Source of the DNA: an uncultured Christensenella sp.
GTDB lineage: Bacteria; Bacillota; Clostridia; Christensenellales; Pumilibacteraceae
DNA: 64,000 nt
NCBI GenBank assembly: GCA_949948895.1
Contig: CATLHE010000004.1
Location: 1 to 64,000, forward strand
Reading direction: 5' to 3'
Below, in pieces: positions 2,113-53,946 of the stretch (within the stretch, counting starts at the first letter, position 1; every line of letters starts with the position of its first letter). Below the pieces are notes generated by a model. That model was not told the origin of the DNA and did not search any database. It was given only the letters and a program-made list of their open reading frames with translations. Position numbers and translations under genes: made by a program.

Positions 2113-5100
2113 TTACAGGGAGTCGCGCTCCGCCTTTGTGAGCGCGCTGCCGAGAACGGCGCCCTCGGGCGCGGCGTCGAGATTGACCCTGAAGTCGTCC
2201 ATTACGACACAGCCGTAATCGCCCGTGGCGTTGTCCACCACCTCGAAGTAACACGACGTTTCCTCGGCGTTATCCGCCTGATAATAATAATGCACCATGA
2301 CGGTGTCCGCCGTGTATGCGTTATTGCGGAACGTAGCAAGCGGTTTACCGCTCGCGCTGTACAAGACGATATAAACTTCGCTGTTATGCGCCGCGCCGAA
2401 TCGGAACGATACTATGCCGTTCTTTTCGAGAATGAACGCGCCGGAGCGCACTACGCCGCGATTACCTTCGACGTTGACGTATTCGCTGCCGTTATCGAAG
2501 TAGAAAGTAAACAGGTAGTTTCCGTCTTTGACGCCTTCGTTTGTCTGATACCAGCCTTCAGCCTTCTCGGTATCGGTGACCGCGCCGAGCGACTCTCCGC
2601 CCGTTGTCCAACCGTCGAGATTACCCGTTTCGAAACTCCCGTTTACCATAGACGCATACTCCGATCTATGGTCGGTCGCAGTCGCGCTGCCCGCGGGCGC
2701 GCTGTCGAGATTGACGTTGAAGTCGTCGACAGCAAAGCAGCCCCAACCCGCTACGGCGTTATCCACGACGCGGAAGTAGCAGAGCGCGTCATCTGTCAAC
2801 GTGTTCTTATAGCTATAGCTCTTGAGTTTTCCGTCCTCTATATTGTCGTTGCGGAACACCGCTACCACCGTGCCGCTTTCGGCATTGACAAGCTCGATAT
2901 AAACGTTGCGATTGCCGCCGCCACCCATTTTGAACGACACGAACTTGCCCGCTTTAAGCACGAACATATTGCTCGTGAGCGTGCCCATATTGCCTTCGCG
3001 GTTTATCTCGTGACCGGGGTTCGGCTCGCCTACCCAGCTCCACCAAGAGAACAGCTTGCTGCCCGTCTTGCCGTACTCGACGCCGTTATTGGCGGGATCG
3101 CCGTTGTGCCAATATTTATCGTCCGAAGTGACTGCGCCGATATCGCCGCCGGAAACAAACCAACCCGCCATGTCGTTCTCGAATCCGCCGTTATAAATAT
3201 CGTACACGGTTGCGGGACGCTCGGTAATATCCACTGCGTCAATAAACCCGTCTATCGGCGCGGATTCATAATACGTCTCGAACGAATCGCAGAACAGCAC
3301 GCCGTAATCGGACGCCGCCATATCTATCACTCTTATATACACGGTCTTGCCTGCCGCGCTTTCGGGCAGCACCGCTTTGTACGCTATGAGCGTGCAACCG
3401 CTCTTGAGTCCCGCGGTCGTTTCCGCCCAAGCGCTGTTGCCGTAGCGGGCAAGTATCGTACCACCTTGCGCGTCGACAACGTCTACGAACACGTCGTGCT
3501 TCGCGCCGCCGAGTTTGAATGTGATCACTCGGCTTTGCGATACTTTAAACGTAGAGCTCACGAGCGCGCCTATGTTTTGCTCGAACTTATCCTCGGGCTC
3601 ATACGCGGAGAAGAACTTGCCGTCGGCATTATACGGATACCCCCCCCCATTGTTTTCGTTGGTCCAGTACGCCGTTGCCGAGCTGACGTTACCTATGTTT
3701 CCTATCTTTGTCCAATCGTCCAGCCCGTTGTCGAACCCGCCGTTTTTAATGCGGTACGCACTCGAATCCCTGACTTTGAGTTTGTAAGTATACGTTACGC
3801 TACGCGTGCCGTCTATAACCGCCTCGATGCTGAGCGAGACATCCGTCGGCTCTTCGTCAAAGCTTCCCGTCACCGTGTACACGCTTCCCGTTACGGCGCC
3901 GCCGTTCACTTTGTACGAGGAAACGTTTTGCGCGTTGTTGATATTGGACGAAAGATCGATCTTACATGCTCCGTTGTAGAGGTCGGCTACCGTCGTCGCG
4001 GTCACCTCGGACTTCTTTGCCGAGGGCGTCGTGTCCGTAACGTTGACGGTCACAGTAAACGAAGCAGTCTTTGTGCCGAGCACGGGATCGACCGCCGTTA
4101 CGTTTACGGTAAGCACGAGCCCGCTGACCGCCGCCGTCGCGGTATAGGTGAGCGAATCGCCGCTTATGCTTACGCCCGTGTCGGGCGTTACGGTATAGCT
4201 GTACGTAAAGTCGGAACCGCTTGCCGCAGTCATCTCGAAGTCGTATGTTCCGCTCGATTTTTCAAACAGATCGAAAGAGATAGTGCCGTTGTTGAACACG
4301 GGCGCGCCGTCCGCCGCGGACGACACGTTGACCGTAAACTCTATATCGACGTCGCCGCACGAGAGAGTCACGGTTATATTTCCGACCGCAACGGCGGTGA
4401 TAGTGAGCTTGCCTGCCGCGACTGTCGCAGTCGCAACGCCGCCGTCCGAAGACGAAGCGCTCACCGCATTGCCGTGCGTGACGATATAGTCTGCAACGTT
4501 GATCTCCATATACGTCGAGCCGTCTACGGAAAGGTTTACCGTTATGCCGTCCGCAACTTTTTCGGCGGCTTTTCTTTCCAGCTTGCGCGTTATGTTAAGA
4601 TCGGTCTCAACCACTATCGTCTCGCCCGGCTGTTTGACTTCGCCGTTCACGTCCCAACCGACAAACTCGAAATCGGGGTCGGGCGAAGGCACTGCCTGAG
4701 GCAGAACAAAAGTCCCGCCCTCGACGACGGTCGCGACCTCTTCGCCGTCCACCGTAACGGTGTATTCGACTGCGGGCGCGGGCTCTACCGTGACTCCGAA
4801 CTCTATCTCTATCTCGCCGCAAACGACCGTTACGGTCGCGCTTCCTTCGGCTTTGGGAGTAATTACTATCTTGCCATCGGCTATGCTCGCTTCGACGGTA
4901 TCGCCGTCGTCGCTTTCGGCAGTGACCGTCGCGCCGTACGCGGTTATGTAATCGGCTAAATCGAGTTTTACTACGATGCCGACCTTTGCCGTTATCGGCT
5001 CGCCGTCTTTGACCTTGACAGCCGCTTTGCGCTTTGTGACGGTCGTGATAACGATATTTTCGTTGACGGTAACGGTATCGGACGGCGCTTTATGTTCCGT

Positions 5101-52718: not shown

Positions 52719-52879
52719 TCCTTTTTGTCTGCCGCGCGCCGCTTTAATTTGCGCATCGACTTTTTCCAATGTGCTTTTCCCGCTTGATTTTACGGCTTAT
52801 CAATGATAAACTGTTTTTATGAATTGTTAGGCGGCGACAAGCCCGCCTAAATGACACAAACCGAAGCGAGGTGAAATAT

Positions 52880-53946
52880 ATGAACATAACTATCGTGGGG
52901 GGGGGAACGTAGGCACTCAATTTGCGGTGCACTGCGCGCATAAAGGTCACGCCGTCATTTCCTACACTTCTCGCGCCGCCGAATATCCCGAAGAGATAGA
53001 AATAGTAAACAAGGACGGGACTTGCTTAATGAGCGGGCGCGTCGAGCCGAGCTACGACCCCGATCGGGCATTTTCGCGGGCGGATATCGTTTTTGTCACT
53101 ACGCCTTCGTTTATGGCGGACAAAATAGCGGAGACTCTCGCCGCTTGGATAAAACCGACCGCCGACATATTTTTGGTGCCCGGCACGGGCGGCATGGAAT
53201 GTCCGTTTGTAAACGCGCTTCCAAACAATCGGGTTTTCGGTCTGCAACGCGTTCCGTCCGTAGCCCGCCTCATAGCAAACGGCAAAGTTTACGCGGAAGG
53301 CTACAGAGCCGAACTGCATTTGGCGGCTTTGCCCAAATCCGAAGCATATCGCGGTTGCCGCATGATCGAGGATATATTCGACATGCCGTGCGAACCTCTA
53401 CCCGATTATCTTAACGTTACGCTCGTTCCGTCCAACCCCATATTGCATACGACACGGCTGTATTCTTTGTTTAAAGATTACCGCGACGGCAAGGTATACG
53501 ACAGGATCCCGCTGTTTTACGAACATTGGAGCGACGATACTTCCGAGATACTGTTCGAATGCGACGACGAAGTGCAAAAGCTTTGCCGCACCCTACCCGA
53601 ATTCGATCTGTCGTACGTGAGATCGCTTCGCGAACATTACGAGAGCGATACGCCGAGCGCGCTTACAGCCAAGATAAGAAGTATCAAAGGCTTTAAAGGA
53701 TTGGCTACGCCGTCCGTAGCGGTAAACGGCGGATATATCCCCGACTTCGACTCGAGATATTTTACCGCCGATTTTTCTTACGGTTTGCAAATATTATGTC
53801 AGATAGCCGACATGGTCGGCTCGCCCGCGCCCAATATGAAAAAAGTCCTCGATTGGTATTTGAAGTTAAAACCTTCGAAAGGTTTCGATTACGCTGACTA
53901 CGGCATAACCGACCTCGCTCGATTCAAAGAGTTTTATTCAAAGTAA
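52880..53946 (+). pseudogene. Opine-dehydrogenase-like gene with a one-base frameshift in a G9 tract
   Basis: GAGGTG precedes ATG 52880. The frame reads MNITIVGGG and then stops at TAG (52910-52912) because the run 52897-52905 has nine G. With one more G it reads GGGNVGTQFAVHCAHKGHAV and continues to 53946, about 356 residues. The result is an intact NAD-binding GxGxxG loop followed by the octopine/nopaline dehydrogenase domain (FLVPGTGGMEC, GLQRVPSVARL, SNPILHTTRLYSLF). Such enzymes reductively join an amino acid and a keto acid. The downstream part has no other breaks. Either the gene is off in this genome by slippage (phase variation) or the assembly lost a G. Own promoter candidate TTGATT-17-TAAACT near 52791. 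Confidence 0.88.
52897..52905 (+). repeat. Nine-G homopolymer at the Gly-rich NAD loop
   Basis: An uninterrupted G run encoding the glycine-rich dinucleotide loop. Nine G gives an early stop, ten G gives a full enzyme. Confidence 0.93.

Follow-up and report, generated by a model that had tools for sequence, protein, structure and literature searches.

In an uncultured Christensenella sp., a gene resembling opine dehydrogenases is interrupted by a run of nine G at the codons of its cofactor-binding loop, which raises the question of whether the run is a length-variable switch, an error of assembly or the mark of a plain inactivation. The gene lies in the window, meaning the whole stretch of 64,000 nucleotides that was analyzed (positions 1 to 64,000 of contig CATLHE010000004.1), and its features are collected in Table 1. 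The reading we favor on balance is that of a slippage-prone, contingency-type poly-G tract in a dehydrogenase gene that is otherwise undamaged and was assembled in the OFF register.

Table 1. Coordinates of features in the window and, for the fusion genes, in the loci of dehydrogenase relatives
Feature	Position	Strand	Basis or remark
Ribosome-site-like GAGGTG	52868-52873	+	Ahead of ATG 52880; sequence
Dehydrogenase 5' frame, MNITIVGGGT then TAG (52910-52912)	52880-52912	+	Sequence, translation
G9 tract, glycines of the cofactor loop	52897-52905	+	Sequence, intact relatives
Remainder of the opine-dehydrogenase-like gene, other frame	52906-53946	+	346 aa, stop 53944-53946
Second G/C run longer than 5 in the window, with no other	3640-3648	- (C9 on +, G9 on -)	In frame in a 1155-aa lipoprotein-like gene
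NTP-transferase/aminotransferase fusion, locus L013	7065-8879		Dehydrogenase relative's locus
NTP-transferase/aminotransferase fusion, locus L014	3124-4971		Dehydrogenase relative's locus
NTP-transferase/aminotransferase fusion, locus L024	8214-10034		Dehydrogenase relative's locus
NTP-transferase/aminotransferase fusion, locus L025	8599-10413		Dehydrogenase relative's locus

Reading frames and product of the dehydrogenase gene

The original prediction had the frame of the first ATG run into a TAG codon at the tract, and the sequence confirms this; the frame and the stop stand as given, and the encoded peptide is ten residues long, MNITIVGGGT instead of MNITIVGGG. The tract is where the two halves of the gene, each in a frame of its own, join, and the codon arithmetic of that prediction is therefore right as well. 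Judging from the intact relatives, the G9 codes for the glycines of a G-x-G-N-[VI]-G loop, and the N-terminal strand and GxGxxG loop are here split over two frames instead of sharing one with the rest of the protein. As at a contingency locus, the length of a repeat tract sets the reading frame. The absence of further lesions downstream, likewise proposed earlier, was borne out: the remainder is open over all 346 codons, matches PF02317 and retains the invariant columns of the family alignment, and its best structure model has a mean pLDDT of 90.6. The frame change at the G9 is the sole lesion detected in the gene.

Both products could be made from the assembled tract if the ribosome slipped by -1 or if slippage occurred during transcription. 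The codon arithmetic gives the needed shift as -1 on a G-GGG-GGG run, and a small stem-loop begins 2-3 bases after the tract. Compared with shuffled sequences, however, the stem gave z values of -0.42 and -0.83 and a longer stretch 1.16; moreover, it is very near the tract, and no such run is kept by the relatives that were read. Expression by slippage is accordingly regarded as very improbable, and a programmed frameshift signal was rejected because the stem does not clearly outperform the shuffled sequences.

The 346-aa remainder matches the Pfam family PF02317 (Octopine_DH) with an E value of 1.7e-27 and 96.7 bits against a cut-off of 30, with an additional weak match to ApbA; no NCBIfam family was assigned to the protein (P0001). 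Sequence matches in the PDB were octopine dehydrogenase (3c7a, 3iqd) and CENDH (1bg6). Five structure models of the remainder had mean pLDDT values of 90.6, 83.9, 77.5, 70.6 and 58.7, and the top four PDB hits in Foldseek were three octopine dehydrogenase entries and CENDH, at E values of 5e-22 to 2e-17. By sequence and predicted fold, the product is a member of the octopine/nopaline dehydrogenase family with a putative opine-forming activity. It shares family, PDB sequence matches and best fold matches with octopine dehydrogenase 3c7a and CENDH 1bg6 and differs from them in that identity in the structural alignments is 19-23% and that its 5' frame is broken by the tract. The enzyme is probably cytosolic, unlike the product of a classical surface switch.

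The neighbors scanned here encode a glycosyltransferase, a two-component pair, an ABC transporter ATPase and one protein with no Pfam match above the cut-off. A staphylopine-like role in opine-metallophore synthesis was rejected because the dehydrogenases of that type are more distant fold matches, as was an opine-metallophore operon, to which none of the five scanned neighbors points. Among relatives, neighbors were listed at five loci (L013, L014, L016, L024 of genome G018 and L025 of genome G004; L015 and L017 were left out). At L013, L024 and L025 the dehydrogenase adjoins a protein that combines an NTP-transferase with a class I/II aminotransferase domain, at L014 this fusion is one gene away with an ornithine-cyclodeaminase-family gene in between, and at L016 the dehydrogenase stands beside other genes. 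LicD-family genes lie nearby in L024 and L025. Together, the fusion and LicD neighbors of the relatives perhaps point to an opine-type decoration of a surface polymer. The present genome contains no close homolog of the fusion protein, the best match being 28% over part of the aminotransferase half.

A search of 61 genomes, which took in 20 of the genus with this one included, matched the dehydrogenase in four: this genome, G018 (55%), G004 (44%) and a fragment in G060. Its distribution is thus patchy, with three of the 20 genus genomes carrying it, and no relative was found in viral contigs. Five further relatives at 46-53% (L013-L017) came from the named genome collection. The loop was read in seven relatives (G018, G004 and L013-L017), the G060 fragment being left out because it begins downstream of the loop. 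In each of the seven a single open frame runs through GGGN[VI]G or GAGNIG, the longest G run at the loop is a G6 in L013, and a long tract occurs in none of them. The tract is therefore no conserved switch and, of the genomes examined, is found in this one alone. None of the seven loci read showed an independent disabling mutation, which the original prediction had named as evidence against itself.

These observations bear on a plain recent inactivation, in which a chance slip at a mutational hot spot would have broken a dispensable gene with no role in switching. The patchy occurrence of the dehydrogenase, the lack here of the fusion partner, which four of the five listed loci of relatives have next to the dehydrogenase or close to it, and the lack of tract conservation in relatives all favor it. 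However, the 346 codons carry no other disabling change and keep the invariant columns, and the genome retains a distinct class of long G tracts (below), and we consider this explanation rather unlikely.

Long G tracts in the genome and at an ABC transporter promoter

Across the 1.86 Mb of the genome, 16 overlapping pattern matches resolved into eight separate tracts of at least nine G or C (9, 9, 9, 9, 10, 10, 12 and 12). In 464 kb, made up of 400 kb of contig C1 and the window, G/C runs of length 3 to 9 numbered 5776, 762, 56, 8, 0, 0 and 2. A dinucleotide-Markov model built from the same 464 kb expects 6.2 runs of seven and 1.15 of eight, where none were seen. Genome-wide, the expected number of tracts of at least nine is about 1.05 under this model and about 0.02 from the decay of shorter runs, against the eight seen; against a plain base-composition model, eight tracts would by arithmetic be no excess. 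Because runs fall to zero at seven and eight and yet eight tracts of at least nine are present, the long G tracts are a class apart and not the tail of the short runs, and the G9 of the dehydrogenase is not ordinary noise. Besides the dehydrogenase tract, the eight comprise two that separate a TTGACA from a -10-like box, two that keep the frame of lipoprotein-like genes, two that are seemingly intergenic and one close to the 3' end of a DeoR-like gene, the names lipoprotein-like and DeoR-like coming from reading the sequence.

One promoter tract could be followed across the genus. In this genome a promoter at C5:94173 holds a G9 within TTGACA-18-TACAAT, and the ABC ATPase gene downstream of it has orthologs in 17 of the 20 genus genomes (E 1e-120). 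Where 260 bp of upstream sequence was present, nine of 14 orthologs carry a tract (G9, G10, G10, G10, G11, G11, G12, G13 and G15), situated 67-170 bp before the ATG; G005, G009 and G019 were left out of this count because too little upstream sequence was available. Tract-free promoters in G001, G015 and G018 have spacers of ordinary length and read TTGACA-17/18/18-TATAAT, and no clear promoter box was apparent by eye in G011 and G004. The spacer of the tract-bearing promoters is 18 here and 15, 19, 20, 21, 21, 22 and 22 elsewhere, with G007 having no TTGAC, and some of these lengths shift under other choices of the -10 box. This tract looks like part of a promoter that is retained at a single gene and has an unstable spacer. 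The conservation found at the ABC promoter, as at a contingency locus, contrasts with its absence at the dehydrogenase.

Predicted poly-G promoter spacers across the order

Genomes were searched for TTGAC, 0-8 bases, nine G, 0-10 bases and TANNNT, with the reversed pattern as control. The genus gave 41 matches, which fall at 29 places and come from 12 of 20 genomes, against none for the control, and the family had the pattern in 42 of 74 genomes, which represent 12 of 18 genera, with one control match. In the order sample 90 of 396 genomes had it, from 33 of 142 genera, the control giving none among the matches listed. A sample of the class had it in seven of 391 genomes (one control match), which divide into five of 19 genomes of the same order and two of 372 from other orders. 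On this difference between same-order and other-order genomes, the predicted poly-G promoter-spacer trait is concentrated in this order, though most sampled order genomes are without it. Genomes without the pattern numbered eight of 20 in the genus and, in the wider samples, 32 of 74 (family) and 306 of 396 (order). A G tract of nine is missing altogether from three of the 20 genus genomes (G001, G011 and G018, the last of which holds the closest dehydrogenase). Compared with the reversed control, the tract lies between the -35 and -10 boxes above chance, as judged by position. Poly-G promoter spacers were found at well over 100 places in the order among the matches listed, with up to 25 matches, which may overlap, in the single genome G033.

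Poly-G as the exclusive kind of spacer was rejected, since a poly-C form is also present in seven of the 20 genus genomes, poly-G being the commoner. The poly-C variant is mostly TTGAC-(N)-TAC-(C)n-G and recurs in several species of the genus, with the longest run in G014. Spacer lengths were scored on 120 strings from among the order matches listed and 28 from the own genus (the 29 places less two of G006, plus the ABC promoter of this genome), ties in the choice of the -10 box being broken towards 17. A spacer of 16-18 was found in 52 of 99 scorable strings from the other families of the order versus nine of 26 from the own genus, so a tight spacer in all lineages was rejected. In viral contigs, a slightly narrower pattern ending in TATANT was found in 11 contigs, too few for comparing lengths.

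Additionally, 112 tracts of at least nine were classed in four genomes (G000, G006, G010 and G017); all listed places were taken in G010 and G006, and two places in G017, C5:62541 and C7:67280, were left out. TTGA[CT] occurred within 12 bases upstream of 24 tracts, where uniform chance gives 2.8, another 13 followed a dispersed intergenic repeat and 75 were of other kinds. The TTGA[CT] class was defined after cases had been seen, and the pattern searches are therefore the better test. At least two of the 24 (in L035 and L042 of G017) lie in coding sequence and need not be promoters.

Tract lengths in sister species and candidate switching

The close pair G010 and G006 offered 15 aligned tracts (72-99% identity), whose orthology was inferred from the match. 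Seven differ in length and eight are equal; one of the eight is a promoter tract whose surrounding sequence is 99% identical. Four of the differing tracts (A5, A31, A37 and A51) change the total length and two (A1 and A55) keep it by substitution, and A48 was assigned to neither class on reading the contexts. A further case, L051/L060, is a second copy in one genome with G10 and G11 and was left out because the common stretch is about 75 bp. Two coding pairs differ in both length and frame, and in each the G006 copy is intact whereas the G010 copy is frameshifted at the tract. One is a lipoprotein-like gene (L106 in G006, L130 in G010), the other a LytTR response regulator (L154 and L148, respectively). 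In a third coding pair (L144/L158) the frames differ with a G9 in both, so not every break is a change in tract length. All these differences are between sister species with one genome per species. Loss of mutS as the cause of the tracts was rejected, as mutS1 exceeded the cut-off in every one of the 20 genus genomes (with one internal stop in G013 and a cut at position 773 in G003) and its loss therefore fails to explain them.

Sister assemblies also bear on whether the assembled or consensus tract is simply wrong, the true tract having another length and the gene being intact in cells. The genome is a draft, seven relatives are intact and the dehydrogenase has no other lesion. In addition, sister-MAG contigs end at or beside G tracts (G009:C26, G009:C5 and G006:C77, and perhaps also G005:C6, which begins 86 bp ahead of the ABC gene and does not show the tract), so assembled lengths at such places deserve doubt. 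However, two of the three coding tracts of this genome for which the frame could be judged (the lipoprotein-like L019 and L020) are in frame, which argues, on a tiny sample, that lengths are not generally garbled. We hold an assembly error to be unlikely. It is because the assembled length may be wrong, as those contig ends suggest, that the switch, assembly error and plain inactivation are weighted as they are here.

The switch reading of the original prediction gains credibility from the occurrence of promoter and gene tracts throughout the lineage and from the differing lengths in sister species, twice with a change of frame; against it stands the absence of a long tract in seven relatives. 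In the proposed mechanism, replication slippage would shift the G tract between lengths, of which the frame-joining ones would yield the full dehydrogenase and the assembled one the ten-residue peptide. The lineage would place long G tracts both in promoter spacers, where they may alter the gap between the -35 and -10 boxes, and within genes, where they may alter the frame. We lean toward the view that the dehydrogenase tract varies in the population, that switching is reversible and that it is useful. By a similarly modest preference, the whole order may run a large poly-G phase-variation repertoire, with this dehydrogenase as one coding switch caught OFF. It seems somewhat probable that the G tracts of such a repertoire occupy promoter spacers and also lie inside genes that encode enzymes, lipoproteins and LytTR response regulators. 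If so, stochastic gene switching would be common in this order and hidden by consensus assemblies, and genes called pseudogenes in such genomes may be switchable.

Known systems resemble both placements. PMC5320596 describes a poly-C tract of Neisseria fetA between the -35 and -10 boxes, whose length changes their spacing, and lists porA among transcriptional phase-variable genes. The likeness to fetA and porA is a homopolymer in the promoter spacer, whereas here the predicted spacer tract is poly-G in the direction of the promoter and occurs in another order. The opc gene is a further case of promoter-spacer phase variation in Neisseria. For Campylobacter and Helicobacter, the PhasomeIt paper (PMC6321876) and a Helicobacter canadensis paper (PMC2823697) tie coding poly-G/C tracts to phase variation. 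The association of a homopolymer with a coding region is shared, whereas here the tract occupies the cofactor-loop codons of a metabolic enzyme and is absent from the relatives that were read. Campylobacter and Helicobacter belong to a different phylum from this genome. In the literature surveyed, phase variation by simple-sequence tracts is described mostly in Neisseria, Campylobacter, Helicobacter and other pathogens. Searches of the open-licence literature found nothing joining Christensenellales or opine dehydrogenase with phase variation, and the titles and abstract beginnings that came up named no poly-G promoters in such bacteria.

Several further features of the tracts were noted. Many response-regulator-like genes of G010 and G006 have G9-G11 tracts within the LytTR domain or at, or close to, the 3' end (L148/L154, L129/L096, L152/L160, L095/L086, L103, L117, L092 and L112), and some of these tracts sit where the gene meets a kinase-like one. 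In L148 and L129, Pfam confirmed the receiver and LytTR domains, the other genes being regulator-like by look. At sister-MAG contig ends that lie at or right next to G tracts (L048, L198, L156 and perhaps L197), some of the letters are junk-like and G/C-rich. Finally, a phage-like-looking stretch of G017:C6 (L035, 10230-12866) holds four tracts of at least 10 G within 2.7 kb, one of them inside a DNA-methyltransferase-looking gene that lies in two frames.
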